A stretch of DNA of 25,575 bases from a virus. The stretch lies in IMG/VR virus record IMGVR_UViG_3300029448_006689, positions 1 to 25,575 of that record; one strand, 5' to 3'. How positions within the stretch are numbered: the stretch's first letter is position 1; each line of letters opens with the position of its first letter. The translations under genes and the position numbers were made by a program. Shown piece by piece: positions 5,970 through 24,765 of the stretch. Below the pieces are notes generated by a model. It made no database searches and was not told where the DNA came from. It saw nothing but the letters and a program-made list of their open reading frames with translations.

Positions 5970-6007
5970 TAAAGTCTCCGAATAATATTAAGTATTATAA
6001 CTCAATA

Positions 6008-6017
6008 ATAAATATCA
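6008..6017 (-). promoter_or_regulatory. TGATATTTAT motif in leader of 76-aa gene
   Basis: The coding strand reads CTGATATTTATTATTGAG, 38 nt before the ATG of the 76-aa protein and 13 nt after the stop of the frameshift extension. It is identical over 10 nt to the motifs at 7733-7742 and 24791-24800. A weak AT-only inverted repeat (ATAATA-TTAAG-TATTAT, 5982-5998) lies between it and the start codon. Confidence 0.3.
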
Positions 6018-6030
6018 GATATACGAAAAA

Positions 6031-7204: not shown

Positions 7205-7690
7205 TTAGAATTGTAAGATTGCGTAATCATATTTAAGTGTTAGTGTAATTTCAGCTGGGTCACTTGTTGCGTAATCCATATCACCGAAATTAGCATTTTC
7301 TATATATGTACCTTTTAATGTCCATTCTTCGACTTTATCACCGACTGGACCTAACATATTAAAAGTTACATCTTTTTTATAAAAATCTGAATAACCATCA
7401 CGTCCAGTTACGGATTCGTGTGATTGTCTAATCCATTCCATAACTGCTTGAGCTGCTGAAGGGACAACTGGGTCGTAAAGCATAATATCAATAGGTTGCC
7501 ATGCTCCTTTACCCTTAATATATCTTTTCACGTTTATGTGGTCTAAAACAATTTCCTCAAACTGAATCTGTGGTCTGTTTGCTGCTTTAATTAAATAAGC
7601 AGGTACACCTTCAATATACATAATAAACCGATTTTTTGTTTTCGGTTCAAATGGTGTAAACATAATTTCTGAAGGGTCTAATGTAGCCAT
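7205..7690 (-). CDS. gp19: Tail tube protein (T4 gp19-like)
   Basis: A 161-residue protein, essentially the length of T4 gp19 (163 aa). It has the expected tube-protein pattern: FEPKTKNRFIMYIEGVPAY near the N-terminus, RPQIQFEEIVLDHINVKRYIKGK, AWQPIDIMLYDPV, VMEWIRQSHE, VEEWTLKGTYIENANFGDM, and a closing beta strand ITLTLKYDYAILQF. Tube subunits polymerise as hexameric rings on the tube initiator and form the channel for DNA. The start is supported by TTTAGGAG 8 nt before ATG. It lies downstream of a strong terminator after the sheath gene, so it probably has its own promoter; the 139-nt leader contains the TGATATTTAT motif. Confidence 0.92.
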   Translation of the reverse strand: MATLDPSEIMFTPFEPKTKNRFIMYIEGVPAYLIKAANRPQIQFEEIVLDHINVKRYIKGKGAWQPIDIMLYDPVVPSAAQAVMEWIRQSHESVTGRDGYSDFYKKDVTFNMLGPVGDKVEEWTLKGTYIENANFGDMDYATSDPAEITLTLKYDYAILQF

Positions 7691-7791: not shown

Positions 7792-7829
7792 CTTTTCATT
7801 ATACGTTACATCTATTTTATAAGTAAAAC

Positions 7830-10436: not shown

Positions 10437-10712
10437 TTAAGAATTTGGTGTAAATACACCAGTTTCGGGGTCAAGTTGTCCATTACCATACTTTTCACTC
10501 AAAGATGCTACCAAAGTAGCTTCTTCTGCCTGTACTTCTGCGTATTCAGCAGTCAAAGCTTGTTCATTCTCTGATAACTTTGCTAATTGTTGATTTAACA
10601 AAAGTCTTTGAACTGATACTTGTCCAAACCTAACTTGTGTTTCCTGATATTTGGTCTGTAAATCTTGTAAAGATTTTAGTTCCTCTGTAGTGAACTTTAT
10701 TGGTTCAGCCAT
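10437..10712 (-). CDS. Small coiled-coil protein upstream of the sheath
   Basis: A 91-residue acidic protein, MAEPIKFTTEELKSLQDLQTK..., made of one long heptad-patterned helix (roughly residues 9-72, with leucines in LLLNQQLAKLSENEQAL) and a short tail GNGQLDPETGVFTPNS. The tail resembles the ends of small phage proteins where residues after the coiled coil carry a short hairpin. The start is supported by AAGGAG 7 nt before ATG. It begins 23 nt after the SDR stop, so it marks the return from the sugar cassette to tail genes. No family is recognised; a virion-assembly role is only suggested by position. Confidence 0.7.
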   Translation of the reverse strand: MAEPIKFTTEELKSLQDLQTKYQETQVRFGQVSVQRLLLNQQLAKLSENEQALTAEYAEVQAEEATLVASLSEKYGNGQLDPETGVFTPNS

Positions 10713-10735: not shown

Positions 10736-11521
10736 TTACCATGCACTCCAACCACCATCAATTACTATATTTTGTCCTGTAACGTATGATGACGCTTCAG
10801 ATGCCAGAAAGACAGCAGCTCCTGCTACTTCGTCTGGTTGTCCTACTCGTTTCATTGGAGTCCTTTTACTTAAATCTACTATGTAACCAGGTCTTTCTGG
10901 TACACCTGGTGTCTTTTTAGGGAAATTACCAGGACTAATTGTATTAACCCGAATCCCCTTTGAAGCATACTCTGTTGCTAATCTTTTTGTCATTTGTAAA
11001 ATACCACCTTTTGCAACTGAATAAAAAACACTTGCACTTTTTACTTCTTGATACAAACTTTGGTCGTGTCCTAAAAAACCATATATTGATGAGACATTTA
11101 TAATCGACCCATTACCTTGTTTTAACATTTGAGGTATAACTGCTTGACTACAAAAAAAGTTATGTGATAAAATATTATCTAAACCAATGTCCCACTCTTT
11201 TTTTGTAATCTCGTCTACTGGTTTTCTATCTTCACAAAACGCATTATTAATAAGTATATCTATAGTCCTATACTTGTTAATAATTTCATTAATTTTTTGT
11301 TTAACTTTTTCTGTATCAGTTACATCACATTGTACATACGAGATATAACCATCAAAATCTATAGTTTTTCTTACAGCTCTACCAAATACGATAACTTTAG
11401 CACCAAAAGAAGTTAAAGCCTTAGACATTGATGAACCTAGATGTCCATATCCACCCGTAACTATAGCTACTTTGTTTCTTAAATTAAATAAATCTTTATA
11501 TTGTTGTGGTTTTTCCATCAT
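10736..11521 (-). CDS. Short-chain dehydrogenase/reductase (SDR)
   Basis: A 261-residue classical SDR. The NAD(P)-binding TGGYGHLG lies at residues 22-29, the NNA segment at 92-94, catalytic Ser in VSSIYG at ~144-145, and the YSVAK motif (Tyr167, Lys171) follows. [12 protein letters not shown] and the C-terminal [14 protein letters not shown] are standard for the 3-oxoacyl-ACP reductase-like branch. The usual NNAG is NNAF here, a mild departure. It is the last gene of the cassette and overlaps the thiamine-enzyme gene by 26 nt (start codons MM at 11521 or 11518), so the two are translationally linked. It probably reduces a carbonyl made by an upstream enzyme, perhaps on a nucleotide sugar; the substrate cannot be read from the sequence. 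Confidence 0.88.
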
Positions 11522-12719
11522 AACAACTTTTTCTTTCTACAATCATAACTGGTCCCTTTGCCATCTGAGCTTTTTTATAATCTCTTAACACTTCAGTAGG
11601 TGTGGTGGGTTCAAATATAGGAAAATCTACTAATTCTCTAAAGACTTTTGTAAAATCTTGTGAATGTGTAGGTCCAGAATAAAATGGTCCACCATCAGCA
11701 ACTACCGTTCGTAAAATTACAGGTGCATTATACTCTCCGTGTGATAATCTTTCTACGTGATTAATGTGATTTCCTATTGCATCTGCTCCAACTAACATAA
11801 AGTCGTGTCTTTCATAATAAACAACTGCCTTTATACCTTCAAACGACATACCTAATGCTAAACTACCCATCAAGTTTTCAGTAACGGGTGTTTCAAGTTT
11901 TTTATCTTCGTCCACTCCTACTAACGTACCCATAGCATTACCAAACTCTCCACCAAGATTATAACCTATAAACATTGTGTTATCTCTTCCAAGTTCTGTC
12001 ATAGCCTGAGTAACTGCTTCTTTATATGTTAGTGTCTCTCCATTAATCTCATCAAAATCAGGAAATGTTTCTTGTGGAAAGTATGGAAAATATTCTTCAT
12101 CAGTTTTTTTAATTTTATTACTTTCTGATAAATCACAAAAATCTTTTGTACGAGCATGTGGAAATGGTAATGTATAATGATATTTTATCACACACGATTC
12201 GGGCCATTTTTGTTCTGCTGCTTTACCCCATCTTGTTTTTTTATTTGCTATAATAGACATATCATTATCTTCAATCACAAACGTACAAGGTAAATCCCAA
12301 CCATCAACGTATCTAACAGCTTCTGAAAAATTTCCTGTATCTTCTGCACCATCACCAACAAAACACCACACTTTCTTATCAGATTTTTTCTTTTTCAAAG
12401 CCCAAGCAATACCAGCTGCAATACCTGGAATACCACCAACAATAGCAGAAGCGAAAAAGTTTTTCTCTCTATCATACATAAACATACTTCTACCATCTAA
12501 TATCTTTTGTTCCATATCATCTGGTGATAGTCCATGTAAGAGTGCATGATAATGATTTCTATGTGTGGCTAAAACGTAATCACCTGTTTTTATATCTTTA
12601 AAGATATCAATTAATTGTGTCTCGTTACCACCACTTAAATGAAATAAAAATGGTAATTTATTGTTGTTATAATGATTGATTATTTTTGATTCAAAATCAA
12701 TTAATTGTTGTTTATTCAT
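11496..12719 (-). CDS. Fused, compact E1-type thiamine diphosphate enzyme (dehydrogenase alpha/beta)
   Basis: ATG at 12719 is preferred (407 aa) because GGAG lies 8 nt upstream and the preceding gene ends at 12722; an upstream frame start at 12749 would overlap that gene. The N-terminal half matches E1 alpha subunits: [14 protein letters not shown] (~52-65), [15 protein letters not shown] (~93-107), the thiamine motif GDG (122-124) ending in EDND (150-153) where NN is usual, and a short linker. The C-terminal half matches the E1 beta pyrimidine-binding domain, with [20 protein letters not shown] containing the conserved catalytic Glu. The beta C-terminal transketolase_C domain is missing. No lipoyl E2 or E3 gene is visible, so it is unlikely to be an ordinary oxo-acid dehydrogenase; a lyase or acyl-transfer step on a sugar or small oxo-acid is more plausible. 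Confidence 0.85.
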
Positions 12720-12721
12720 AT

Positions 12722-13327
12722 TTATCTCCAAGTTGGTCCTTCTACCCAACCAACTAAAGCATAACGTGTACCTCTTGTTATTGGGGTTACTTTATGTCTT
12801 AACCAAGAAGGAAAAACCGTTAAACATCCTTGTTTTCTTATCTTATTAGCATCAGGATTTCCTGATTCTATTACGTCATTTGGATTTAATATAAGATTAC
12901 ACCCTTCATATTTACTCGGGTCTGATAATTGTAACGTAAAAGAAAGTTTACGATGTTTAGGGTCAGTCTCTAAATTTGAATTATCATTACACCACATTAC
13001 ATCAATATGTTCATTATATTTACCAGTATATTTTTCATCATATTCTGTAAAATCTATGCCTCTTAAAGTATCAATATCAATATTACCGAACCAAGTTTGA
13101 TTTGCACCCTCTACTGCCTGTATTATTTTCTGAAAAATCTCAGGGAACTCCTCATATTGCATACCAACAACTCTACAACTTCTAAAATCTTTATTAAGTT
13201 CTCCATCGTGACCTATCCCTCCATCTTGAAAACCTTTTGTTAGTCCTGCATTTAAACACTTTAACGTAATGATATCACACTCTTCGGGTGTAAAATAATC
13301 TTCAAAATATGACCATAAACTTTTCAT
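12722..13327 (-). CDS. 2-oxoglutarate/Fe(II)-dependent oxygenase (prolyl-hydroxylase-like)
   Basis: A 201-residue protein with the double-stranded beta-helix oxygenase signature: iron ligands HID (His107, Asp109) in YNEHIDVMW, a distal His178 in SWLRHKV, and Arg185 or Arg188 in TRGTRYALVGW for the 2-oxoglutarate carboxylate. The core runs through HRKLSFTLQLSDPSKYEGC, GCLTVFPSWLRH and VGWVEGP, as in PKHD-type hydroxylases, which are common in marine T4-like phages. It would hydroxylate a protein side chain, lipid or sugar using O2 and 2-oxoglutarate. It lies 6 nt after the alcohol dehydrogenase stop and 2 nt before the thiamine enzyme, so it belongs to the same operon. The substrate is unknown. 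Confidence 0.88.
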   Translation of the reverse strand: MKSLWSYFEDYFTPEECDIITLKCLNAGLTKGFQDGGIGHDGELNKDFRSCRVVGMQYEEFPEIFQKIIQAVEGANQTWFGNIDIDTLRGIDFTEYDEKYTGKYNEHIDVMWCNDNSNLETDPKHRKLSFTLQLSDPSKYEGCNLILNPNDVIESGNPDANKIRKQGCLTVFPSWLRHKVTPITRGTRYALVGWVEGPTWR

Positions 13328-13333
13328 AATTAT

Positions 13334-14377
13334 CTACATTTCCACAATACATCGACCTGATAGTCCTTGTCCAGAACGAACCACATCGAGAGCATTATTT
13401 ATTTGATATAAATCAAATTTATTTGTTATTAGTTTATCGAGATTTAATTTATCTCGTTTATAAAGTTGTAGATACCTATTTATATCTACAGATGGATTTG
13501 TCAATCCTCCATCACTATCCATTAAAACTTTACCTTTAAAGTGCTGTAATACTGAATGTAAAGTTAAATGTTCATTTGGTTTGGGTTGTCCTACCATTAT
13601 AGTTTTTCCACCACCTGTTGTTAAATTACACGCCATCTCTATCAACTCAGTATGTCCAGTTGTGTCTATAAATACATCAACTCCTAAACTACCCACTATT
13701 TTTTTAACACTATCACGAACATCTTCTTTACTTGTATTAATAGTGTGTGTTGCTCCAAATTCTTTTGCTAATTCTAACTTGTGGTCGTGAATATCAATTG
13801 CAATAATAGGATTTCCTGACACGAGAGAAGCCCCTTGTACTATATTCAACCCAACACCCCCAGAACCAAATATTGCTACTGACTGACCTATTTTTAATTT
13901 TGCCTCATTATTAATAATACCTAGACCCGTAGTTACACTACAACCCATAAGAGCTGCAATATCATAAGGAATATCATCATCTATTTTAGTAATTCTATTT
14001 TCAGAAACAATAGCCTCTTCATTAAAAGTTGTAACTAATCCTCCCCCTACAATTTTACGACTACTTTCAGAAACATATCTTGGAAATTCAGATTCTATAC
14101 CATCTCCTTTTCTCCAGTGCATAACAACTTTATCACCCGGACTTACCGTTGTTACTCCTTCACCTACTTGTAAAACTTTTGCTCCCCCCTCGTGTCCTAA
14201 CAAACAAGGTAAAAATTCTTTTTTAATCTTTACACCTGATATATGACCTAACTGAGCTCCACATATACCACTACTACGAACTTCAACTAATACTTGTCCA
14301 CATTTAAGTTGGTCTTTTAAATATAGTTTTTCTACTACAAGAGGTTCATCAAACTTATAAATTACAGCTGCTTTCAT
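13334..14377 (-). CDS. Zinc-dependent alcohol dehydrogenase (MDR family)
   Basis: A 347-residue medium-chain dehydrogenase. Catalytic zinc ligands are visible as Cys39 in SSGICG and His62-Glu63 in LLGHEGG. The segment GEGVTTVSPGDKVVMHW follows, but the cysteine-rich structural-zinc loop normally found after it is absent, so the enzyme probably carries only catalytic zinc. The Rossmann domain has VAIFGSGGVGLNIVQGA and IIAIDIHDHKLELAKEFGATHTIN; the Asp after the second strand suggests NAD(H) rather than NADP(H). It begins 2 nt after the methyltransferase stop without a clear ribosome binding site, so translation is probably coupled. It may interconvert an alcohol and an aldehyde or ketone used by the thiamine enzyme or SDR next to it. 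Confidence 0.9.
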   Translation of the reverse strand: MKAAVIYKFDEPLVVEKLYLKDQLKCGQVLVEVRSSGICGAQLGHISGVKIKKEFLPCLLGHEGGAKVLQVGEGVTTVSPGDKVVMHWRKGDGIESEFPRYVSESSRKIVGGGLVTTFNEEAIVSENRITKIDDDIPYDIAALMGCSVTTGLGIINNEAKLKIGQSVAIFGSGGVGLNIVQGASLVSGNPIIAIDIHDHKLELAKEFGATHTINTSKEDVRDSVKKIVGSLGVDVFIDTTGHTELIEMACNLTTGGGKTIMVGQPKPNEHLTLHSVLQHFKGKVLMDSDGGLTNPSVDINRYLQLYKRDKLNLDKLITNKFDLYQINNALDVVRSGQGLSGRCIVEM

Positions 14378-14379: not shown

Positions 14380-15765
14380 TTATTTCACTTTATAAAGTGA
14401 TAAGTATTCTGAAGGCATTTCAAAACACAAATCTCTGTTTACTTCCATTTCTTTGAGGTTACGTCTGTATATTTCAGATGATTCCTCGTGTCCTTCTAAA
14501 AACCATTCTTGAAATAAAAAACTATGTGTGTAACTATACCAAGAATTATTAAATGATTGGTCCTCAATAAAATGGTCTACGAAATCTTCATATTGTAAAT
14601 AACTCTCTACAGGTTCAGGTATACTAAATGGATATTGTTCCAAATCTAATGGTCGAAAAATACTAAATTTTCTATAAAAATCCATAGGACACGCTTCTAC
14701 ATTCCAATTATAATCAGCTTTGTTCTTCCAGTTTGACAATAATAAATACTTTGCACCACTCCTTACAAAATTTGTAAGGCCTTTTTTTATTTGTGTATTG
14801 GTTAAATGTTGAAATGTCTGACGGCATATTATCAAATCAGCCGGTTCACTTATCTCTTGTGTTAAATCAAATTGTGAAAATTTTACATCGGGAAAATCTT
14901 TTTTATTTTGTTCAACCATTGCATTAACAATTTCATATCCGTGATAATCAATTCCCATATCTTCATATTTTACGTTATGTTCCCAATTACCATACAAACC
15001 ACACGCAATGTTATTAACAGATTTGATATTATGTCTGTTACATATATCTCTAATTAACTCTTGTAATGTAATATTCGTTTTATCTTCAAGACTTAAAATT
15101 TGTCCATCTACACTACCAGTACCACAAGGTACTCCTGCTCTCGATTCAATTTCAAATACGTTTTCAAAAGCCTCTACATTATTTTCACTTTTCATTTCAG
15201 TAATAGGAATGTATTCAACTTGATAATCACCTTTTAAATCATTGACCACTTCAGTTGCTGGTATTGGAAAATATACATACTTACCAAGAATTAATAAATC
15301 AACTCGTCTTTCATATAAACACGACATAGCAGTATTTTCATCAACGACTAAAGTAGAAGATGAATCAATAAAAGGAAAAAATACTAATTCATCTATACCA
15401 GATATATTATGATATTCTTTCACTATATTAGATAACCAAGTATTAGCATTTGAATGTGTTGAAATTATTGGAAATTCTACTTGATTTTCTATTTTTAATT
15501 TATTCCATAATTTTTCTTTCGACATTTTTCTAACTAAAATATGTCTAAAAGAACCATTTTGATGTTTATCAAAGTCATATTGACCATCAACTATACCTAT
15601 TACGTAACCAAAATTTAACCAAGAAGCTATCATATCAGTTGTGAATTCTACTCTACTGATAAAAGCATTCTCAGTTTGATATTCATTATATTTAGAATAT
15701 TCTATATCACACAATTCCTCCGTGATATTATAATTTATTTTTGTACGGTCAAAATTAAATTTCAT
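14380..15765 (-). CDS. SAM-dependent methyltransferase with an unrecognised N-terminal domain
   Basis: ATG at 15765 is preferred (461 aa): it overlaps the kinase stop as ATGA and MKFNFDRTK is a natural beginning. A longer frame from 15816 would lie inside the kinase gene. The first ~240 residues match nothing I recognise: beta-rich, aromatic, with FGYVIGIVDGQYDFDKHQNG and a long stretch that may form a barrel or sugar-binding domain. Residues ~248-358 look like a class I methyltransferase: VNNIACGLYGNWEHNV in place of the usual glycine loop, YHGYEIV for the acidic ribose-binding strand, then FSQFDLT and PADLIICRQTFQHL for motif IV. The C-terminus FFPLDLEQYPF-like region may bind acceptor. It probably methylates a sugar, given its neighbours. 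Confidence 0.75.
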   Translation of the reverse strand: MKFNFDRTKINYNITEELCDIEYSKYNEYQTENAFISRVEFTTDMIASWLNFGYVIGIVDGQYDFDKHQNGSFRHILVRKMSKEKLWNKLKIENQVEFPIISTHSNANTWLSNIVKEYHNISGIDELVFFPFIDSSSTLVVDENTAMSCLYERRVDLLILGKYVYFPIPATEVVNDLKGDYQVEYIPITEMKSENNVEAFENVFEIESRAGVPCGTGSVDGQILSLEDKTNITLQELIRDICNRHNIKSVNNIACGLYGNWEHNVKYEDMGIDYHGYEIVNAMVEQNKKDFPDVKFSQFDLTQEISEPADLIICRQTFQHLTNTQIKKGLTNFVRSGAKYLLLSNWKNKADYNWNVEACPMDFYRKFSIFRPLDLEQYPFSIPEPVESYLQYEDFVDHFIEDQSFNNSWYSYTHSFLFQEWFLEGHEESSEIYRRNLKEMEVNRDLCFEMPSEYLSLYKVK

Positions 15766-16520
15766 TTCTGAGTAACAACCTCCACACCGTGTTTTTGAAT
15801 GACTTCTACAGAACATTCTTGTGCGAACTTTATTGAAGTATTAGGATTATTATTCTTGAGATAATGTATCGTAAAGGCAGCTAAAAAAGTATCACCTGCT
15901 CCCGAAACGTCTCTTACTTCTACTTTTTTAAAAACAGGATATGTTTTGTTCTGAAATTTACAACCTTTAGCTCCTAACGTAACAATTAATTTAGAATCTA
16001 TACCTGGAAAATTATTGTAATAAAGTTTGTCTAATAAATGTTTTGTTTTTTCGTACTCGTATTCATTTAGTTTTATAAAATCAGCTTCTACACACCAATC
16101 ACCTAATAACTTATTTGTTTGAAGAAATGTAGGTGTGTCTGTCTCTAAAATCAGTTTTAAATCTTTAACATTTAAAAATCCTTTATCGTAATCAGATATT
16201 ATTATACCATCATAACCTTTAAGTACATCTTCGTTATGTTCATATTTTTCATCTACGTAATCGTGTTTATCAACTCTTATTATCATTTGATGAGTTCTCG
16301 CGTCAACGTATCTTATTTTTTCTATCGTGTTTTTATTTGTGATAATATCACATTCATAACCTAAAGAACGAACATTAGCAGCAACGTTACCTGCCATACC
16401 CATATTTGATTTTTCTTTAACTGGTTGAAAAACAGGCACTGGAGCTTCTGGACACATTCTATCACATAACCCGTAGATATACTTATCTTTACAACTATCA
16501 CCTATAACTAATATTTTCAC
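15762..16520 (-). CDS. rfaE1: PfkB-family heptose-7-phosphate kinase (RfaE/HldE domain I-like)
   Basis: A 252-residue kinase starting with GTG inside a GTGA overlap with the epimerase stop. Motifs of the heptose 7-phosphate kinase domain are plain: MKILVIGDSCKDKYIYG, the family-specific RMCPEAPVPVF, GMAGNVAANVRSLG, IISDYDKGFL, then DVSGAGDTFLAAF with the catalytic Asp, near the C-terminus. In HldE this domain makes D-glycero-D-manno-heptose 1,7-bisphosphate from heptose 7-phosphate; the E. coli domain is ~318 aa, so this copy is shorter, mainly in the middle. The adenylyltransferase domain of bifunctional HldE is absent. With the adjacent HldD-like epimerase it points to phage-encoded heptose synthesis; another sugar-phosphate substrate is possible. 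Confidence 0.87.
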   Translation of the reverse strand: MKILVIGDSCKDKYIYGLCDRMCPEAPVPVFQPVKEKSNMGMAGNVAANVRSLGYECDIITNKNTIEKIRYVDARTHQMIIRVDKHDYVDEKYEHNEDVLKGYDGIIISDYDKGFLNVKDLKLILETDTPTFLQTNKLLGDWCVEADFIKLNEYEYEKTKHLLDKLYYNNFPGIDSKLIVTLGAKGCKFQNKTYPVFKKVEVRDVSGAGDTFLAAFTIHYLKNNNPNTSIKFAQECSVEVIQKHGVEVVTQK

Positions 16521-17305
16521 TTTAAATATTCCTTGTAATCTTTTATACCCTTTTCTAAATCATACTTCGGTTTCCATCCAGGTAACCATTTATTTTTATC
16601 TGATTGAGTATAGTATTGATACCAATCAGGTATTTCTAACTCATTTTTATATGAGTAAGGTATTTCCATTAAATCTAAAACATCTTCAAATAATCTGGCC
16701 TGACCACTACCAACCTCATAAACACCAGGTGTTACTATATTAAATAGTGGATAAATTGTTGCGATTACAATATCTTTTACGTATACAAAATCTCTTCTAG
16801 GTTTTTTAGGGAATAGTCGAAATGAACCAAGTCTGTGTGCTTGATAACCGACAGAAGCCATTTTACCTTTTCTTTCTTCTCCTGGACCATAAACATTAAA
16901 GTATCTCAAAGCTATAAAATCAAAATCTAATGCTACACCATATTGTTCTGCTAATAATTTAGACCAACCATATATGTTAGTTGGTGTACCATCAACACCA
17001 TCATTAGCAGCAGATGATGCATAAATAACTTTTTTATTGTGTTTCTTTGCAAAATCAAATAGTTTTTTACTAAAATCATAATTATACTTTAACATTTCAT
17101 TTTGGTCTTGTAAAGTTGTATCTGATATAGCTCCAATATGCAGTATTACATCTGTGCATTCTACACTATATTCAAGTTCTTTTTCCCAATCAGGTCTTTC
17201 TATAAAATCATTTTCTATTAGAATCAATTCAAAATCCTCTTCTAATTTCATTTTTATATTACGACCTACAAAACCATTCCAACCTGTTAATATAACACGT
17301 TTCAT
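16517..17305 (-). CDS. hldD: ADP-heptose 6-epimerase-like NAD-dependent epimerase (HldD/RfaD-like)
   Basis: A 262-residue extended SDR. It has LTGWNGFVGRN (NAD-binding TGxxGFxG), VILHIGAISDTT, the YASSAA strand, NIYGWSK (Tyr and Lys of YxxxK), and RYFNVYGPGEERKGKMASV followed by RDFVYVKD. The combination YASSAA, NVYGPxExxKGxMASV and RDFVYVxD is characteristic of HldD, whose Lys in KGxMASV is an active-site residue. E. coli HldD is ~310 aa, so this one lacks ~50 residues. HldD converts ADP-D-glycero- to ADP-L-glycero-manno-heptose, the donor used by heptosyltransferases. It is coupled by ATGA to the gene before and by GTGA to the kinase after. Another nucleotide-sugar epimerase activity cannot be excluded. 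Confidence 0.87.
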   Translation of the reverse strand: MKRVILTGWNGFVGRNIKMKLEEDFELILIENDFIERPDWEKELEYSVECTDVILHIGAISDTTLQDQNEMLKYNYDFSKKLFDFAKKHNKKVIYASSAANDGVDGTPTNIYGWSKLLAEQYGVALDFDFIALRYFNVYGPGEERKGKMASVGYQAHRLGSFRLFPKKPRRDFVYVKDIVIATIYPLFNIVTPGVYEVGSGQARLFEDVLDLMEIPYSYKNELEIPDWYQYYTQSDKNKWLPGWKPKYDLEKGIKDYKEYLK

Positions 17306-17877
17306 CTATTACTCCTCTCTGTATCAAAAAAGAAAACTTGAAAAAGTCTACCGTTTTGTAATGTATCTCCAAAATAATCTAAACTACTATGATATAACTT
17401 ACTATCATAGACCACTATCTTATTGAATTCATTCGACACACTTTGAATCATTTCCCATTTGAAATTTTCTTGACCTTCTGATTCTATTTTTTTATCAAGT
17501 ATAGTTTTTCCATTTATAGGTTTCATCATACCAGTTTTTCGATGTTTAAAAAATCCTGTTCCAGCAGATGATGGTGCATTGGGGGTCAAATAACATACGG
17601 CTGCCCAAGTGTTATGGTTATCTGCGTGTATCCAAGATTTATCCCAACTATATGTTATTTGAAACGCCCCATTATATTCTTCGTTAAATTTAGTAATTTT
17701 TCCACCATATGGATATACTATTTGTTCTATTGAATTTTTTACAGATTTACTTAAATAAGGTTTAGTCCTACCTCCAGGAAAATTTCCTGTTACGTTGTAA
17801 TCTAATTTTAATGCCATTTCCCTAACTTCATATGGATTATCATAAAAATTTTTTAAACTAATTACATCTAACTTCAT
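17302..17877 (-). CDS. DUF6445-like putative 2-oxoglutarate/Fe(II) oxygenase
   Basis: ATG at 17877 is preferred (191 aa) since it overlaps the previous stop as ATGA; an in-frame GTG at 17886 is the alternative. The sequence has a beta-helix oxygenase layout: FQITYSWDKSWIHADNHNTW with HAD (His84, Asp86), AAVCYLTPN, TGFFKHR, then IVVYDSKLYHSS (distal His163) and GRLFQVFFFD (Arg177). This spacing matches the DUF6445 type of small phage and marine bacterial oxygenase-like proteins, in which the co-substrate role is predicted rather than widely tested. It is unlike the other oxygenase in the cassette (12722-13327), so the two probably act on different positions or substrates. Confidence 0.72.
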   Translation of the reverse strand: MKLDVISLKNFYDNPYEVREMALKLDYNVTGNFPGGRTKPYLSKSVKNSIEQIVYPYGGKITKFNEEYNGAFQITYSWDKSWIHADNHNTWAAVCYLTPNAPSSAGTGFFKHRKTGMMKPINGKTILDKKIESEGQENFKWEMIQSVSNEFNKIVVYDSKLYHSSLDYFGDTLQNGRLFQVFFFDTERSNR

Positions 17878-18260
17878 AGTTCCCACTTATCTCTCATATT
17901 GTACGATTTTACAAATATATCTGCAAAACCATAACTTGGATGAAATTGTTTAACCACAATATACCAATTACGATAATCTTGATTTGCTGTTCGGAACCAA
18001 ACAAAACCACCTTCTGGTTGTGCAGTAAGTGCTCTGGAATCTACATATTTTATTTTATTTGTTTTTACATCAAAGTCATACCAACACACTAAATAATGTT
18101 TTCTTATTTTTTGTCCATTAACTACCGTATCAATTTCACCATCAGAATGTATTGTTACTTTAGGACTTTTACCGAAGGTAACTTCAATTATAGGAGGAGT
18201 TTGTTTTTCAAATCTACTATCAATCGTAGTACCTTCAATTGGTTTGATAGGATTATTCAT
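17874..18260 (-). CDS. Stand-alone beta-domain protein related to the heptosyltransferase beta domain
   Basis: A 128-residue protein with a polar N-terminus (MNNPIKPIEGTTIDSRFEK) and a beta-rich body. Its C-terminal half, CWYDFDVKTNKI ... NWYIVVKQFHPSYGFADIFVKSYN, aligns with KWYVEVKMWNPDYGFIVVDSHTYN in the 245-aa protein (18823-19560), and more weakly with DWKVQVVDIKTNKIIIDYTLD in the glycosyltransferase (beta domain of TibC/Aah-type enzymes). So three cassette proteins share this domain. There is no catalytic motif. It overlaps the preceding gene by 8 nt (AGAGG lies upstream of ATG) and the following one by ATGA. It may be a binding or targeting subunit that recruits acceptor proteins or the glycosyltransferase; that is inference. 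Confidence 0.65.
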   Translation of the reverse strand: MNNPIKPIEGTTIDSRFEKQTPPIIEVTFGKSPKVTIHSDGEIDTVVNGQKIRKHYLVCWYDFDVKTNKIKYVDSRALTAQPEGGFVWFRTANQDYRNWYIVVKQFHPSYGFADIFVKSYNMRDKWEL

Positions 18261-18822
18261 ACATATTTACCTCTCGTGCCCAATTCAAATCATTTAATCT
18301 TTGTCTTAGTTTTATATTATTAAAGATATCACCTTTTACTGCTATATTAAGATACTCAGGATATAATTGGTGTAAATGATTAAAGTATTCAACTATTCTG
18401 TTTTCTAAAAATAATTGTGTATTGTATGCTAAATTAGCAAGTCTCTGAGTATCAAATTTATGTATCGCTTTAATATCTAATAAGTAATTAAAAACTATAG
18501 ATATACCTTCGTCTGAATTTGTTATTCCTACAGGTCCAAATGTTTTTGTATCTTTGTGATAATAACATAGTTTTTCAAATGCAGAATATATTCTTTCATC
18601 GTATTCTCCACTATTTACTAACTCTATAAATTCTGTTTCATCTATATATTCTAACCAATTTAATACGTAAAAATACAAACGTGTAATTTTACCACTTGTA
18701 GAGGTATACATTGTATTTACAATATTTTTTATATTATTTTCAGCTAAATAAAATTTACCACATATAAATTCATCTTCACATAAAGACACAACTAAAGTTT
18801 TTTCTTGAAATAGTGTATTCAT
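18253..18822 (-). CDS. Degenerate partial copy of the carbamoyltransferase
   Basis: A 189-residue protein homologous to residues ~111-308 of the neighbouring carbamoyltransferase (19547-21193). Shared segments are EKTLVVS, LAENN.KNIVNT, GEY...Y.AFEKLCYY, and above all LAYNTQLFLENRIVEYFNHLHQLYPEY. It starts in the middle of the parent protein and ends before its C-terminal domain. The HHxxH metal site lies outside the copied region, the D-A-G-G turn is replaced, and the nucleotide-binding SGGVFANVKLN has become VKGDIFNNIKLR, so it cannot be active as a carbamoyltransferase. The frame is intact and it abuts its neighbours (0-nt gap upstream, 8-nt overlap downstream), so it may be retained as a regulatory or scaffold subunit rather than a decaying remnant. 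Confidence 0.75.
   Translation of the reverse strand: MNTLFQEKTLVVSLCEDEFICGKFYLAENNIKNIVNTMYTSTSGKITRLYFYVLNWLEYIDETEFIELVNSGEYDERIYSAFEKLCYYHKDTKTFGPVGITNSDEGISIVFNYLLDIKAIHKFDTQRLANLAYNTQLFLENRIVEYFNHLHQLYPEYLNIAVKGDIFNNIKLRQRLNDLNWAREVNMYE
18355..18434 (-). repeat. 80-bp duplicated segment, copy in the truncated gene
   Basis: This stretch aligns without gaps to 20369-20448 in the carbamoyltransferase gene, with about 12 differences (near 85% identity by eye). It encodes the AYN.QLFLEN.IVEYFNHLH.LYP peptide. It shows that the smaller gene arose by duplication inside this locus. Confidence 0.8.
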
Positions 18823-19560
18823 CTAAACGATACTCCAATCTTGTGATAATCCCAATATATCTTCTGCCACTTGTTCGGTAGTTAAATTTGTCCAGTCTCG
18901 AGGATTTTTATACGAAAACATCATATTACCAGTAACTAATCTTACACCACTTGGATATGCATCTGGATATGGATTTAGAATTTTTTTCTCTTTATCGCCA
19001 TCCAGTTCGTACATATAGTGATTTGTATTACGATGTGGGTCAAATCTTCCTATATCGTATGTAGCATATGGTGAATTTTTACCATATGGTTTTCTGTTGT
19101 CCCAAGGCACTGGGAAGATTCCAAACTCTGCTTGTAGTTTTTTACTTATTGTTTCGTCCTCTACAGAAAAATGGACATTACACCTATGTATTTCTTTATA
19201 TTTAAGTCCAACTAACATCCAAGTGTAGATATCATCATAGTCTTTCGAATGTAAACTAATTAATACATCTTTACCACAATCATTATAAGTGTGAGAATCT
19301 ACCACTATAAATCCATAGTCTGGATTCCACATTTTAACTTCCACGTACCATTTAGCATATATTGAGTACATTGCTTCAGTTTCTGCAAATGGTACTCTCC
19401 AGTGTTGACCTGATATCTTAACTGGTTGATTAGTTTTTTCATCTATTATATAAAAATTTAATAATACTAATTGACCACAATAGTTTTCATTTAGGTGTCT
19501 AATCTCTACCTCTGGATATGGTCTAAACTTATAATCTATGGTAATATTATCGATTAACAT
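18823..19560 (-). CDS. 245-aa protein with an N-terminal heptosyltransferase-type beta domain
   Basis: The N-terminal ~110 residues carry the cassette's shared beta domain: LNFYIIDEKTNQPVKISG, then AKWYVEVKMWNPDYGFIVVDSHTYN and GKDVLISLHS, which corresponds to GKTILVHLDS at the domain border in the glycosyltransferase. The C-terminal ~130 residues (CNVHFSVEDETISKKLQAEFGIFP ... TGNMMFSYKNPRDW) are unlike anything I know, with many aromatic and Pro residues and the motif YATYDIGRFDPHR. It overlaps the carbamoyltransferase by 14 nt and directly abuts the truncated carbamoyltransferase. I infer a partner of the glycosylation machinery; no catalytic residues are recognised. Confidence 0.65.
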   Translation of the reverse strand: MLIDNITIDYKFRPYPEVEIRHLNENYCGQLVLLNFYIIDEKTNQPVKISGQHWRVPFAETEAMYSIYAKWYVEVKMWNPDYGFIVVDSHTYNDCGKDVLISLHSKDYDDIYTWMLVGLKYKEIHRCNVHFSVEDETISKKLQAEFGIFPVPWDNRKPYGKNSPYATYDIGRFDPHRNTNHYMYELDGDKEKKILNPYPDAYPSGVRLVTGNMMFSYKNPRDWTNLTTEQVAEDILGLSQDWSIV

Positions 19561-21193
19561 AATATATAAAATCCTCCATCACTAAATAATCTACAACACC
19601 GTCCATTAAATGATTTATAGCCTGGTCAGGTCCGTCTATTATAGGTTCTCCATGCACATTAAACGATGTATTCAACAAGACAGGTATGTTTGATAATTTT
19701 TCATATTCAACTAATACATTATAAAATGGATTATTTTCATATACTAATTGAGGTCTTGCACTTTTATCAACTTCGTGTATCACTGCTGGTATTTTATCTA
19801 CCCATTCTTTTCTTGTGTCGTAACACATTGTCATAAATTCAGCAGTATAATGTGATTTATTATTTGTTATAAATACATCATTTGCTTTTTCACCTATCAC
19901 TATTGGTGCAAAAGGCATTATTTCAGTTCTACCTAATCTTTTATTTAAATTTTCGTGAGTTTCTGCATCAGTAGGTCTAACTAAAATACTTCTGGCACCT
20001 AAAGCTCTTGGTCCAAATTCAAATCTACCTTTAAACCAACCCACGATAGAACCCTCGTTAAGGTGTTTTGATATTAACTTATCATCGTATTCAATTCTTT
20101 GAATATCTGTAGTTGTTTTTGTGTTGATACCATTAATCAAAGTATCTATGTGAGTTTGAGTATATTTAGTACCATAGAATAAATTATCAAATCGTTTAGT
20201 TTCCCATTCACCCAACTCTACAGCTTTCTTTATGGTTGTTCCTAATGCTAATCCAGAATCTGACATTGCAGGATATACGTATGTTTCATCGACCCAATCT
20301 AACTCATTTAACTTTTGATTTAACTTTACGTTAGCAAATACACCACCAGATAATACAATTTTTTTATAGTCTGGATATAGTTTATGTAAATGATTAAAAT
20401 ATTCTACTATTTTGTTTTCTAAAAATAATTGCATATTATAAGCTAAATCTGCTCTTGATTTTTTATTTGTAGAGATATCTTTCAAAATTCCTGTAGTTCC
20501 GAAATAATCTAAAACTATATTTGTTCCAGTTGCAGATTCTACTTGATGTGGTGGTCCAAATTTCTTTTGTTCTTCATCATACCAACACATCTTTTCAAAA
20601 CTTTCATATACATCTTTATTATACTCACCATAACCTGCTAAACCAGTTACTTTACCTTCATCTTTATTTATTCTCCAACCTAACCATCGTGTTATCATAG
20701 CATACATACAAGGTATACTCGCACTCGTTCCCATTGGCCAAGTGTTAACTATATTCATTTTATTGTTTTCTGCTAAAAATGTTCTACCAAACGTACTATT
20801 ATATCCTCTTGACCTAGATATACCTCCAGCATCATACGATACAACTAAAGTTTTTTCATTAAAACCAGATGTATAATATGCACCATAACAATGTGCATCG
20901 TGATGATTAGTAATTGAAATTTTTTCCTTATCTATACCATATTGCATCCAATACTCAGAAGTAATACCCATAGGTGTAGCAGTACAAAAATAATCTATCT
21001 CGTCAAAGTCTAAATTAAATTCTTTTTTAATTCTATCTAAAGATAAAATAGGACTGGCATCTGGGTCATCTGCTACCTTTACTCTACGAGGTCTTTCTTC
21101 TTGCACTATAGATTGTATTTGACCATCTTTTATGTAAACAGCACCAGCATCGTGTGCTACTGGACCACCGTATAAACCAATTAATTTACTCAT
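19547..21193 (-). CDS. Carbamoyltransferase (NodU/CmcH family)
   Basis: A 548-residue protein with the full architecture of O-carbamoyltransferases. The N-terminal Kae1-like part has AHDAGAVYIKDG and EERPRRVK, the metal-binding NHHDAH (His97, His98, His101), VVSYDAGG, and the nucleotide-binding LSGGVFANVKLN (~281-292). The C-terminal part has GWFKGRFEFGPRALGARSI, MPFAPIV and NTSFNVHGEPI. Members transfer a carbamoyl group from carbamoyl phosphate, through carbamoyl-AMP, to a hydroxyl of a sugar or antibiotic. It begins 3 nt after the radical SAM stop. The likely acceptor here is a sugar made or transferred by the cassette. A partial copy of this gene lies two genes downstream. Confidence 0.93.
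   Translation of the reverse strand: MSKLIGLYGGPVAHDAGAVYIKDGQIQSIVQEERPRRVKVADDPDASPILSLDRIKKEFNLDFDEIDYFCTATPMGITSEYWMQYGIDKEKISITNHHDAHCYGAYYTSGFNEKTLVVSYDAGGISRSRGYNSTFGRTFLAENNKMNIVNTWPMGTSASIPCMYAMITRWLGWRINKDEGKVTGLAGYGEYNKDVYESFEKMCWYDEEQKKFGPPHQVESATGTNIVLDYFGTTGILKDISTNKKSRADLAYNMQLFLENKIVEYFNHLHKLYPDYKKIVLSGGVFANVKLNQKLNELDWVDETYVYPAMSDSGLALGTTIKKAVELGEWETKRFDNLFYGTKYTQTHIDTLINGINTKTTTDIQRIEYDDKLISKHLNEGSIVGWFKGRFEFGPRALGARSILVRPTDAETHENLNKRLGRTEIMPFAPIVIGEKANDVFITNNKSHYTAEFMTMCYDTRKEWVDKIPAVIHEVDKSARPQLVYENNPFYNVLVEYEKLSNIPVLLNTSFNVHGEPIIDGPDQAINHLMDGVVDYLVMEDFIYYVNR
20369..20448 (-). repeat. 80-bp duplicated segment, copy in the full carbamoyltransferase
   Basis: The partner of 18355-18434. 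The encoded peptide lies at about residues 249-275 of the carbamoyltransferase, just before the nucleotide-binding SGG loop. The region beyond it is also homologous at protein level but more diverged in DNA. Confidence 0.8.
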
Positions 21194-21196
21194 ATA

Positions 21197-22309
21197 TCAC
21201 TCGACATCGTTTATTGCTTGTATATCAGTACACATTTTACATATAAAATCTGGTGGACTTTCTATGTAACCATGTCCCATATACATAAATTCTTTATACT
21301 CTCTACTATTAAATAATTCAGTTATTGTTTGTGTTTCTAAATTACCTAAAATATTTCTTTTTTGCCAATCATTACAACAAACCGTTACACTACCATCATA
21401 TAAAACGTGTAATCCTCTACCATCAAAAAATCTTGCACAATTAAATTCATTCTTTGGTCCTATTTCTCTAACAGGTCTATTTCCTCTCCACTCATCAAAT
21501 AAACGAAGGTCACCAGACCTATTTTGAAACAACGTTGAAGAACTTTGATACTGACCATATGCACCAAAAAGTTTTTCTATGTGATTATACCAATCTTGTG
21601 GGTCATAAAATTTTATTGACAAATCAGCCTCTGTAGGATTTCTATCTGTTAGACCTGGGTCGTTACCGTGATATCCCATAAAAAGAATAGGAATTATACC
21701 TCCACGTTGAGTATTATAACTCATTATAGACCTTATGTTATCTATCGTTTTTTCGTATTCATATTTACTTCCCATTATTTCTTGCCAAGATTCTTTATCT
21801 GTTCCTGCAAAATGAATGAATAAACCATAACGATTTTTTCCATCACCCCAATTTTCATATTTCATCATTAAGTCAATTAATTTCCTACCTCTTTCTGGGT
21901 CTAAAAGATTAGCATTTGTAGGAAAATTCATTCTTGTATTGGGTAACATTTTATAAAAAAATTCAATTCGTTGTAAAAATTTAGGGTCTGCTGTAGGTTC
22001 ATTACCATTTTGATAACTATAATGTCCATCAAAATCAGGATAAGTATTTTTTATATCTAAAACTATTCTTTCATATAATTCATCTTTCATATATCCTGGA
22101 TTTAAAGTTGTCCATGCATATGGATAAGGACAATAAACACAATTAGAGGTACATACTGAAGTTGTCATTATTGATATATACTTTAACGGATATAATTTTA
22201 ATTTAGATTCATCGATAAAATCTACTAACGAATTTTTAACTTTATTCTTTTTTAATAATGAATCTATTCGTTTATCTAAATCCATATCATTTACTCTGGA
22301 CTCTTTCAT
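21197..22309 (-). CDS. Radical SAM enzyme with a SPASM-like C-terminus
   Basis: A 370-residue protein with the radical SAM cluster motif CTSNCVYC (Cys53, Cys57, Cys60; CxxxCxxC) after a ~40-residue helical leader. NGNEPTADP is the glycine-rich SAM-binding strand. Cysteines in the C-terminal part (FNCARFF, VTVCCNDWQ, then FICKMC) match an auxiliary iron-sulfur SPASM/Twitch-type domain, with ILGNL and TITELFNS typical of that region. Such enzymes carry out radical chemistry on peptides, sugars (dehydration, epimerisation) or methyl groups. Its start overlaps the glycosyltransferase stop as ATGA, with AAGGG 5 nt upstream, so it is translated with it. The substrate is unknown; a sugar or acceptor protein in the same pathway is plausible. 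Confidence 0.88.
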   Translation of the reverse strand: MKESRVNDMDLDKRIDSLLKKNKVKNSLVDFIDESKLKLYPLKYISIMTTSVCTSNCVYCPYPYAWTTLNPGYMKDELYERIVLDIKNTYPDFDGHYSYQNGNEPTADPKFLQRIEFFYKMLPNTRMNFPTNANLLDPERGRKLIDLMMKYENWGDGKNRYGLFIHFAGTDKESWQEIMGSKYEYEKTIDNIRSIMSYNTQRGGIIPILFMGYHGNDPGLTDRNPTEADLSIKFYDPQDWYNHIEKLFGAYGQYQSSSTLFQNRSGDLRLFDEWRGNRPVREIGPKNEFNCARFFDGRGLHVLYDGSVTVCCNDWQKRNILGNLETQTITELFNSREYKEFMYMGHGYIESPPDFICKMCTDIQAINDVE

Positions 22310-24765
22310 TTTAACCCTTCGTATAAATTATTTTCTGTCATATATTCTTTTATTTTACTTATTACCATTTTAGGTGTAATAGTTGTACTGCATTCAAATT
22401 CTCTTTCAGTATCATAATGTCTCGGACACATCATCCATAAATCTCTCTTGAATGGATATTCTACACAACAATCAGTACAAATATTTTCATCGTATTGATG
22501 ATTTTTTGAACGAGAGATTGATTTTACGGCAGGAAAGAAAAATTCAGGTGGTTGTAAATTTACAATATTAATCACTGGTGTTCCTACTGCCCAGGCTATC
22601 CAAGACATACCTGAATTCAAACCCATATAAAAATCAGCATATTTTAAATCAGATATCCGGTCCTCAATAGTATAGTTGGGTCCTGTTTTGTTGATAACAT
22701 TTTTAAAGTTGTGGTCATTCCACATTACTCTTTTATCGTACCCATCACCTTTATAACCATAAACTCTATCTTTATTTAATACTACGACTTTATATCCTAT
22801 AGAATTTAAATAATATACTACTAATTGCCAACCCAAACCATAATCATACTGAGGAGATTCACCGCGTTGATAACCATAGTTCCAATACTTTGATTGTGCC
22901 GTAGACATTGTGTTTATACATACATATCGTTCTTGAATATTTCTTTTATATTTTGATATATTAATTATAGGTTTTATTGGTTTATAATCAATACCTAATT
23001 GGTCTGAAGCTGTTTTTCCTAATGGTTGAGTTTGATAATTTATAGGACTATGTGTCGTGTCGAATGGTTGGTCTTGTCTATCTTCTTCAGTTTTAGTTTC
23101 GTGATTCCATCCAATCCAACCTAGTTTATATTCAAGATGTGCTTCAACCTCATATTTATTCCCATAGATAAAATCAATATCGGGATAATTTTCCATCCAT
23201 AAAGGCATATACTTATTATTTGTCCACCAACAAATAACCTTACACTTTTTTTGTTTTCTAAGTTCTTCTATTTGAGGAAACCAAATTACATTATCTCCAA
23301 GTGAACTGCTATCTAAATGTACTAAAATAGTTTTTCCTTCTAAACTATCAAGTGTGTAATCTATAATTATTTTATTTGTTTTAATATCTACAACTTGAAC
23401 TTTCCAATCTGTATGATAGGTTCTTTCAGTTGAAGTATATTCACCTGGTTTCATTGTAGTACTAAATAAGTTATTACCATCAAAAAATTTAACTTCAAAT
23501 GTATCGTTATGACTACCTACATAATCTGGTATTGATACTCTAAAACCCGTACCTCTATTTTTCCAATTTCTTGTTGTTAAATCTTTCCCATCACACTTGA
23601 TTAAATTACGTAATTCTTTTGTTCTATCAAATTCATAAGTTTTATCTATATCTGATAATATATCATATGCTTGGTTTACACTATTACTCCAACTAAATTT
23701 TTCTCTGATTGTACGTGATTCTTCTATTGCTTTCTTTTTATATTCTTTATTATTTTCATATAAATTTCGCATTGTAACGGAAAGATGATTAAAATCTGGT
23801 TCGTAAAAATTTTCACTTGAATCTGGTCCAATAATATCAATCGGATGTCCTTTTCCTTTTGCAAACTCAAGTTGTCCACTACAATTAGAATAAATTGACG
23901 GGATTCCACATGCCATTGCTTCAATCAAAGGTAAATTCCAACCTTCACTGCGAGAACAAGATAAAAATACATCACTTGTTATTAATTCTTCAATATATTC
24001 TTCTCTATTCAGAAAAGGTAGACTTTTTATTCTAAAATCTTCAATTTTATACTTTTTAAGTATGTCTTGAGTATTTTTTATACCATCTTTAGCATAAATG
24101 TTATTAGTTAATAAAACTAAATCAATAGGTTCAGTATTTTTAAATGTTTTTAAAAATGTTTCTATAATTTCTTTTGTTGCTTTTCTATATTCCCAACGTC
24201 CTACAACAATAAATTTAAATCTACCATTTTTATTAGTTGTTTTTCTTGGATAATAAATTGATGAATCAACACCTTCTCTTACTACTTTTATTTTTTCTTT
24301 AGGAATACCTTGTTTGATATAAATATTTTTTTGCCACTCACTTGCAACCCATATTTGATTAAATTTTAATAATCTTTGTAAAAATTCTGAATGTATCTTT
24401 TTCTCTTCAGTTATTATATATGCTATATTGAATCCTAAATAATTATTATAGAAATAAGTGTGATTCTGTGATACTAAAACAATGTTTATATTTGGAATAA
24501 AATTTTCATCGTAACCATATATGAAGTGATTTGTAGATTCTTCGTTTGCACCTATTAGAGTTTGTTCAGATAACATATCCCGTAACTCATTTGTCATATA
24601 GGGTTCACCTTCGTGAGGTGTGGATGATATTCCATTCCACGAATCACCTACGGTAAAGTTTCTTATCTTTATTGGAACAAATTTATTTAAAGTAGTTGTA
24701 AATGCTCTAGCGTGATTATTGTAACCATTATTACCTATAACACTTGTATGTACTTTTATTTTCAT
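22306..24765 (-). CDS. Bifunctional glycosyltransferase: GT4 domain fused to a TibC/Aah-like heptosyltransferase
   Basis: ATG at 24765 (819 aa) is preferred over an in-frame ATG at 24801 because AAGAGG lies 9 nt upstream and MKIKVHTSVIGNNGYNNHARAF starts a GT-B fold. Residues ~1-400 are a GT4-type transferase with VVGRWEYRK and SRSEGWNLPLIEAMACG holding the EX7E motif (~274-282). A beta domain follows (~422-476). Residues ~478-819 resemble bacterial autotransporter heptosyltransferases: TILVHLDSSSLGDNVIWFPQIEELRK, MGLNSGMSWIAWAVGTPVI, then ICTDCC ... MMCPRHYDTEREFEC, five cysteines at ~763, 766, 767, 780 and 792 matching the iron-binding cysteines of TibC. That family moves heptose from ADP-heptose to Ser/Thr. 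With epimerase and kinase genes nearby the heptose donor is likely. Phage fusions of this kind are unusual. Confidence 0.85.
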   Translation of the reverse strand: MKIKVHTSVIGNNGYNNHARAFTTTLNKFVPIKIRNFTVGDSWNGISSTPHEGEPYMTNELRDMLSEQTLIGANEESTNHFIYGYDENFIPNINIVLVSQNHTYFYNNYLGFNIAYIITEEKKIHSEFLQRLLKFNQIWVASEWQKNIYIKQGIPKEKIKVVREGVDSSIYYPRKTTNKNGRFKFIVVGRWEYRKATKEIIETFLKTFKNTEPIDLVLLTNNIYAKDGIKNTQDILKKYKIEDFRIKSLPFLNREEYIEELITSDVFLSCSRSEGWNLPLIEAMACGIPSIYSNCSGQLEFAKGKGHPIDIIGPDSSENFYEPDFNHLSVTMRNLYENNKEYKKKAIEESRTIREKFSWSNSVNQAYDILSDIDKTYEFDRTKELRNLIKCDGKDLTTRNWKNRGTGFRVSIPDYVGSHNDTFEVKFFDGNNLFSTTMKPGEYTSTERTYHTDWKVQVVDIKTNKIIIDYTLDSLEGKTILVHLDSSSLGDNVIWFPQIEELRKQKKCKVICWWTNNKYMPLWMENYPDIDFIYGNKYEVEAHLEYKLGWIGWNHETKTEEDRQDQPFDTTHSPINYQTQPLGKTASDQLGIDYKPIKPIINISKYKRNIQERYVCINTMSTAQSKYWNYGYQRGESPQYDYGLGWQLVVYYLNSIGYKVVVLNKDRVYGYKGDGYDKRVMWNDHNFKNVINKTGPNYTIEDRISDLKYADFYMGLNSGMSWIAWAVGTPVINIVNLQPPEFFFPAVKSISRSKNHQYDENICTDCCVEYPFKRDLWMMCPRHYDTEREFECSTTITPKMVISKIKEYMTENNLYEGLK

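Follow-up and report, generated by a model that had tools for sequence, protein, structure and literature searches.

A TibC/Aah-type heptosyltransferase domain encoded in the tail module of a T4-like phage beside a collagen-like tail fibre

The IMG/VR record IMGVR_UViG_3300029448_006689 (25,575 bp, analysed whole and referred to below as the window) is a fragment of a T4-like phage genome, so the absences reported here hold for this 25.6-kb window. Baseplate and tail genes, among them those of the tail tube and sheath, occupy one side of the window, and a co-directional minus-strand block of approximately 14 kb runs between the sheath side and the S74 end of a tail-fibre gene (Table 1). An earlier note, made from the sequence alone, had placed in this block a glycosyltransferase with a C-terminal bacterial autotransporter heptosyltransferase (BAHT) half, an HldD-like epimerase, and an HldE-domain-I-like kinase. 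The three genes lie at those places on the minus strand and in that order, and the overlapping starts are confirmed, the kinase and HldD-like genes sharing 4 bp. The likely start of the transferase gene is the ATG at 24765, and not an upstream TTG, since the sister genes in contigs L398 and L399 (retrieved by a scan with the N-terminal GT4 half of the transferase) begin there. The start listed for the methyltransferase-fusion gene, 15816, is probably too early and was moved, because its first 17 codons overlap the kinase gene in another frame. Beyond the earlier note, the end of a collagen-like fibre was found upstream of the transferase gene, the cassette was seen to include NodU-type carbamoyltransferase, radical SAM, and 2-oxoglutarate (2OG) oxygenase genes, and a further BAHT, incomplete, was located at 18823-19560.

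The GT4 part of the transferase comprises approximately the first 380 residues, and the BAHT part, approximately residues 406-819, contains a beta-barrel, GT-B lobes, and a four-cysteine (Cys4) iron finger. TIGR04414, the curated equivalog model for autotransporter O-heptosyltransferases, matches the window protein with 204.0 bits (E 3e-60), above its cut-off of 200; relatives in L398 and in contig L378 score 230.7 and 342 bits, respectively, and the model is matched by all members of A3 (58/58). In the PDB, the C-terminal half matches TibC (4rb4, E 3e-36). The catalytic base of TibC, D110, is kept as D491 (numbering of the 819-aa protein), and the ADP-heptose-binding residues T226, K230, R286, and W305 are kept as T622, K626, R703, and W722. 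The iron-site cysteines C339, C342, C358, and C370 align with C763, C766, C780, and C792, the set that the earlier note had pointed out. Residues D110 and W305 are invariant in the phage rows (70/70 each), K230 is kept in 69/70 and R286 in 57/70. The four finger cysteines, predicted to bind metal, are kept in 70/70 rows, the count for the fourth being biased in the relatives, whose search pattern contained the FEC motif. An AlphaFold model (predicted local distance difference test, pLDDT, 82.6; predicted template modelling score, pTM, 0.85) superimposes on TibC (4rap) with Z 36.6 and a root-mean-square deviation of 2.4 over 365 residues, barrel and finger included, whereas WaaC, WaaF, and another GT9 enzyme reach only Z 19-21. 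Given this difference and far lower profile scores, the identity of a GT9 lipopolysaccharide (LPS) heptosyltransferase was rejected. Profile search and structure prediction both favour BAHT over GT9 and agree with the active-site residues, so that membership of the C-terminal half in the TibC/Aah-type BAHT family, as judged from sequence and predicted fold, may be regarded as secure. Pro300 limits TibC to D,D-heptose, while Aah has Ser at this position and takes both heptoses (PMC4358343). At the corresponding position the window protein has Asn, and 65/70 phage rows have Gly; such a replacement would leave room for an L,D donor. No autotransporter gene is present in the window.

A single-sequence scan of IMG/VR returned no direct relatives of the window transferase, and alignment-based scans were therefore used, which recovered at least 539 BAHT-encoding stretches. 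Among the best 80 of these, 54 have the T4 sheath gene on the locus, and every sheath gene that could be placed follows BAHT in the same orientation, in most cases 0.1-1.3 kb away; sequence-related glycosyltransferase (GT)-type genes stand directly upstream of BAHT in most loci. Four of the 50,697 deposited phage records encode BAHT, namely Microcystis phage Mel-JY01, two versions of a 735-kb phage, and a 636-kb phage; among the same records, no cyanophage of marine Synechococcus or Prochlorococcus does so. In the fusion protein of Mel-JY01, a cultured phage, an FkbM-type methyltransferase stands between GT4 and BAHT, and upstream of its gene lies a long Gly-X-Y frame rich in Ser and Thr. In a tree with 50 cellular-genome rows, a branch with support 99 sets apart the 44 phage rows and the window, which is itself a long branch of uncertain placement. 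The only cell-labelled rows inside the phage branch are two short contigs from metagenome-assembled genomes (MAGs), one of them with sheath and tube genes. Contig L110 (Winogradskyella MAG contig JABDKL010000107.1, binned as Flavobacteriaceae) encodes BAHT, sheath, tube, and a collagen-like protein; it is a phage contig and hints at a Bacteroidota host for part of the clade. Within the literature searched, no relevant paper connects a phage with an O-heptosyltransferase.

In the fibre of the window, the S74 domain is preceded by at least 12 Gly-X-Y triplets, most of which are Gly-Gly-Thr or Gly-Ala-Thr. The giant genes beside BAHT operons are likewise collagen-like (PF01391 with 444-554 bits in four of those tested), and several end in S74; autotransporter-type strand-loop-strand repeats were considered for these giant proteins and rejected, NCBIfam giving collagen-like models only. 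With a collagen-like open reading frame (ORF) defined by at least 12 consecutive Gly-X-Y triplets, such frames are found in 32 of the 40 BAHT loci of 14 kb or more. In the same collection they occur in 46/80 GT4-BAHT loci (46/46 with BAHT) versus 1/80 loci retrieved by a kinase search. Within one sheath clade, dereplicated and with at least 6 kb upstream, collagen-like ORFs accompany 20/25 BAHT-positive and 1/15 BAHT-negative loci (Fisher p 8e-6), and among loci retrieved by sheath alone 9/13 and 1/16, respectively (p 0.001), the rows in both comparisons being related to one another. The association recurs in distant lineages, including Mel-JY01, the 735-kb phage, and contigs L042, L077, and L063. 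Ser and Thr together fill 69-81% of the X and Y positions of the collagen-like fibres. GT25 is the family of collagen galactosyltransferases. In L063, beside a sheath gene and two collagen-like fibres, a single protein (15705-18158) combines GT4, GT25, and two 2OG-Fe(II) oxygenase-like domains, which fits collagen hydroxylation and glycosylation.

For the HldD-like protein, TIGR02197 gives 175.4 bits (E 2e-51) against a cut-off of 274.6, the next non-HldD model reaching 39.5; its top four PDB matches are all HldD (4/4), and the NAD-binding GxxGxxG (TGWNGFVG), YxxxK (YGWSK), and lysine-segment (KGKMAS) motifs are intact. The kinase matches TIGR02198 in two stretches with 122 bits in total (E 3e-35; cut-off 345), model segment ~70-96 being missing. 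Its next-best family is ribokinase (42 bits), its top PDB match is HldA (4e84), and PEAPVPV and GAGD are kept. The shortness of the phage proteins accounts at least in part for both scores falling under the equivalog cut-offs, and the identities of a heptose kinase and an ADP-heptose epimerase are likely, judging by family matches and motifs. The phage-encoded ADP-heptose synthesis proposed in the earlier note thus stands at the level of best families (HldD and HldE domain I) and not at that of curated equivalogs. GmhA, a GmhB-type phosphatase, and an HldE-II nucleotidyltransferase were looked for in the window and none was found, which bears out their reported absence.

The linkage of these enzymes to BAHT, also claimed earlier, is present in the window, L398/L399, L042, and L378, but related kinases and HldDs, which are frequent in T4-like cyanophages and marine phages, mostly have no BAHT nearby. 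The 80 kinase-search loci contain HldD in 44 cases, a nucleotidyltransferase in 40, a cupin in 40, a small HAD protein in 35, a thiamine pyrophosphate (TPP) enzyme in 21, and BAHT in 1, and an obligatory partnership of BAHT with kinase and HldD was rejected on that last count and on the small number of BAHT contigs with either gene. In L042 the GT4-BAHT, cupin, nucleotidyltransferase, and kinase genes overlap in a row; in L378 BAHT is also linked to a kinase, and three BAHT contigs carry a kinase elsewhere. The 735-kb phage encodes a strong HldE-I match (306 bits versus the cut-off of 345) and an HldD-like protein. The 636-kb jumbo phage (LR756504) has a GmhA above the curated cut-off at 430182-430640, 27 kb from its stand-alone BAHT. 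Most BAHT phages would depend on host ADP-heptose. A recurrent phage sugar module (L085, L086, L087, L318-L397) consists of a cupin, a short HldE-I kinase, a small HAD protein, a nucleotidyltransferase, and HldD, all five occurring in 21/80 viral loci; it may parallel the GmhA-HldE-GmhB-HldE-HldD pathway, with the cupin and small HAD protein replacing GmhA and GmhB. The cyanophage annotations "phosphoheptose isomerase" (HAD) and "cysteine dioxygenase" (cupin) have no Pfam support.

Table 1. Genes of the sugar cassette and its borders in the window.
Feature	Coordinates	Strand	Evidence and remarks
Tail-fibre gene, C-terminal end, open at contig edge	24830-25573	-	PF13884 S74 chaperone domain after Gly-X-Y run
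Bifunctional glycosyltransferase, 819 aa	22306-24765	-	N-terminal GT4 (PF00534; EX7E motif EGWNLPLIE); C-terminal BAHT domain (TIGR04414, TibC match)
Radical SAM/SPASM protein	21197-22309	-	PF04055, PF13186
NodU-type carbamoyltransferase, 548 aa	19547-21193	-	PF16861, 177 bits; PF02543, 105 bits
Half-BAHT, beta-barrel and N-lobe only, probable pseudo-enzyme	18823-19560	-	TIGR04414 positions 53-163, 34 bits; hhalign probability 97%
Partial NodU paralogue	18253-18822	-	43% identical to NodU residues 111-307
Second half-BAHT remnant, 128 aa	17874-18260	-	32% identical to half-BAHT across 68 aa
2OG-Fe(II) oxygenase-like protein (DUF6445)	17302-17886	-	PF20043; HAD metal motif
HldD-like ADP-heptose 6-epimerase, 262 aa	16517-17305	-	TIGR02197; GxxGFxG, YGWSK, KGKMAS
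Short HldE-domain-I-like PfkB kinase, 252 aa	15762-16520	-	TIGR02198; PEAPVPV, GAGD
Degenerate NodU C-terminal part fused to methyltransferase	14380-15765	-	Insertion between kinase and alcohol dehydrogenase
Zinc alcohol dehydrogenase (ADH)	13334-14377	-	PF00107; homologue in S-SM2/P-TIM68 cassettes
2OG-Fe(II) oxygenase	12722-13327	-	PF13640; HxD motif HID
TPP enzyme (E1_dh and Transket_pyr)	11496-12749	-	61% identical to S-SM2 homologue
Short-chain dehydrogenase (SDR)	10736-11521	-	PF13561
Small coiled-coil gene, sheath-side cassette border	10437-10712	-	Many loci have a homologue placed between BAHT and sheath
T4-type tail sheath (gp18), directly downstream, anchoring the locus in the tail module	7830-10334	-	PF04984/PF17482; 44% to Microcystis phage Mel-JY01
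Tail tube	7205-7690	-

Contigs L398 and L399 share with the window essentially the whole cassette from the fibre end (S74 seen in L398) to the sheath, in the order GT4-BAHT, radical SAM, NodU, half-BAHT, second NodU, second half-BAHT, 2OG oxygenase, HldD, kinase, ADH, second 2OG oxygenase, TPP enzyme, SDR, coiled-coil, and sheath. Identities between the window and the sisters are 60% for GT4-BAHT, 70-71% for radical SAM, 69% for NodU, 59-60% for the first-listed (DUF6445) and 54% for the second 2OG oxygenase, 73-76% for HldD, 84-91% for the kinase, 90-93% for ADH, 85% for the TPP enzyme, and 78-79% for SDR; the fibre end is 62% identical in L398. The methyltransferase-fusion gene is the sole cassette gene that has no counterpart in either sister. 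Ratios of nonsynonymous to synonymous substitution rates (dN/dS) range from 0.07 to 0.38 across cassette genes (0.51 for the ORF5 remnant), indicating purifying selection, several of these estimates being rough because dS exceeds 1. The preserved gene order and low dN/dS imply that the cassette is a maintained unit and no chance assembly.

NodU, the 2OG oxygenases, radical SAM, and the half-BAHTs belong to this cassette, and NodU stands directly before BAHT in ten other phage loci. Behind NodU, the window and its sisters carry a half-BAHT that stops at the boundary of the N-lobe and has neither donor lobe nor iron finger; the sister half-BAHTs carry Q or E at the position of the catalytic Asp. 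A model of the half-BAHT, whose input alignment contained BAHT halves, matches TibC 21-200 with Z 17.4. The half-BAHT at 18823-19560 is probably a pseudo-enzyme, and half-BAHTs may plausibly have a role in binding the acceptor or choosing sites. The NodU/half-BAHT pair is tandemly duplicated, the second copy being eroded in the window, while L398 has at the same places a longer second NodU (367 aa) and a second half-BAHT of 262 aa. The L398 half-BAHTs (5975-6721 and 7802-8587) are 52-53% identical to their L399 counterparts, versus 98% for the flanking NodU and 96% for GT4-BAHT, which marks the half-BAHT genes as a spot of locally raised divergence or of gene exchange. Weak partial BAHT-like ORFs also lie near full BAHT genes in L079 (202-1140) and L083 (585-1547), so degenerate partner copies may be common. 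The literature searched held nothing on 7-O-carbamoyl-heptose carbamoyltransferases, for which P. aeruginosa may offer a precedent.

The earlier note had left the acceptor as either the phage's own virion or a host surface protein. The late tail-module position of the transferase gene and its linkage to Ser/Thr-rich collagen-like fibres favour the former, and narrow it to a putative virion fibre. Precedents exist for sugars on such proteins: SgtA O-glycosylates Thr/Ser of the collagen-like BclA3 and is encoded beside its target gene (PMC7157674), and mimivirus modifies its own collagens (PMC9546862). With the family, fold, active-site residues, gene order, conservation, and fibre association as described, we lean, if only somewhat, toward O-glycosylation by the phage of its collagen-like tail fibre with a modified heptose as the best-supported mechanism, in which the sugar, the acceptor, the order of steps, and the benefit are what we infer. 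The cassette would then be a late glycosylation locus with which a T4-like phage decorates its virion. Its GT4-BAHT protein would act on Ser/Thr of the Gly-X-Y fibre encoded just upstream, the BAHT half moving heptose from ADP-heptose and the GT4 half adding or priming another sugar. The kinase and HldD would supply or boost the L-glycero-D-manno donor, while the host, or some other part of the phage genome, would contribute the isomerase, phosphatase, and nucleotidyltransferase steps. NodU would carbamoylate and the 2OG oxygenases hydroxylate, while the dehydrogenases and TPP enzyme may further alter the sugar or backbone. The benefit may lie in host-range tuning, fibre protection, or receptor interactions. 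A wider reading, which we put forward tentatively and with less confidence, is that a large unrecognised viral BAHT branch comprises collagen O-heptosyltransferases of T4-like and jumbo phages that place heptose on Gly-X-Ser/Thr, with some lineages carbamoylating, oxidising, or extending a phage-made heptose and with dead half-BAHTs aiding acceptor binding or site choice.

Several observations weigh against fibre heptosylation. On the acceptor side, the window's own fibre shows only 12 Gly-X-Y triplets, at the contig edge; a sign test aware of the sheath phylogeny reduces the collagen association to 3 independent pairs, which agree in direction and give no power; and the acceptors known to date for BAHTs are autotransporters of beta-helical type, collagen not being among them (PMC4358343). 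On the donor side, the kinase and the HldD-like protein both score under the curated cut-offs, the kinase/HldD module mostly occurs without BAHT (within 10 kb in 1/80 viral kinase-search loci) and normally feeds other transferases, and most BAHT loci lack kinase and HldD, few BAHT contigs carrying either. This usual separation of the module from BAHT makes donor identity the weakest link, and the sugar is the least certain step of the model.

Some of these donor-side points also speak for a decoration system with another donor, in which BAHT would use a different ADP- or NDP-sugar and the short kinase and HldD would either yield a sugar other than heptose or serve another transferase. The shortfall from the equivalog cut-offs is considerable for both enzymes, the module occurs mostly without BAHT, the TibC Pro300 position is altered, and searches of the window and of the genomes of cyanophages S-SM2, P-SSM2, and P-TIM68, which carry the kinase module, gave no GmhA and no GmhB-type phosphatase. 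Yet the window protein retains all four ADP-heptose-binding residues of TibC, no other family comes near HldD for the epimerase (175 versus at most 40 bits for non-HldD models), and two other BAHT phages encode, respectively, a GmhA above its cut-off and a strong HldE-I (306 of 345 bits), so that we consider a non-heptose donor doubtful. Unlikely, too, is that the cassette builds or modifies an LPS or capsule glycan of the host during infection, for instance to block superinfection, with BAHT acting on a glycan or a host surface protein. Host remodelling is the standing reading of phage clusters with PfkB kinases, nucleotidyltransferases, epimerases, and GTs (PMC7824862; PMC7029224), and the kinase, HldD, TPP enzyme, ADH, and SDR are common to the window and cyanophage clusters. 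However, BAHTs are protein O-heptosyltransferases, GT9-type LPS heptosyltransferases fit the predicted model far worse, and the BAHT gene is part of the late tail module, where it runs in the same direction as fibre and sheath, and it tracks collagen-like fibres across distant phages. Modification of some other virion protein, such as the tail sheath, which is the most constant downstream neighbour, or a small Ser/Thr-rich tail protein of the kind encoded between BAHT and sheath in several loci, is quite improbable, as BAHT-less phages of the same sheath clade keep a similar sheath and mostly lack a collagen-like fibre.

BAHTs have so far been described as adding sugars to bacterial adhesins. 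An offshoot of the family is now seen in several hundred phage loci, often beside collagen-like fibres, which suggests that in many phages the tail fibres receive a sugar coat from the phage itself. Should the fibres prove heptosylated, host recognition by phages would depend on a sugar code written after translation and overlooked when hosts are predicted from genomes. Phage glycosyltransferases dismissed as "LPS modification" would then have to be re-examined, and E. coli could be given a compact enzyme that O-glycosylates collagen-like proteins.

Among known systems, TibC and Aah (TIGR04414; PDB 4RAP/4RB4) share with the window protein the N-terminal barrel, GT-B lobes, Cys4 iron finger, catalytic Asp, and Thr/Lys/Arg/Trp donor site. 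The window BAHT differs in being phage-encoded, fused behind GT4, and placed beside a collagen-like fibre instead of an autotransporter; the phage rows fall outside the bacterial clade, and Asn replaces the Pro300 of TibC and the Ser of Aah. HldE domain I/HldA and HldD are the best family and PDB matches of the two smaller enzymes, which keep the key motifs but are shorter (252 and 262 aa), score below the cut-offs, have no fused adenylyltransferase, and are not accompanied by GmhA or GmhB in the window. Cyanophages S-SM2, P-TIM68, and P-SSM2 encode homologous kinase and HldD proteins, with the TPP enzyme and ADH in one block in S-SM2 and P-TIM68 and an annotated NodU-like carbamoyltransferase in P-SSM2; unlike in the window, no BAHT was found in these cyanophage sugar clusters, which are read as modifying the host surface (LPS) (PMC7824862). 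Also comparable are SgtA of C. difficile, acting on BclA3, and L230/R699 of mimivirus, glycosyltransferases that O-glycosylate collagen-like proteins, sgtA lying beside its target, although these enzymes are unrelated to BAHT and transfer other sugars, N-acetylglucosamine (GlcNAc) to Thr and glucose to hydroxylysine/galactosylhydroxylysine, respectively (PMC7157674, PMC9546862).

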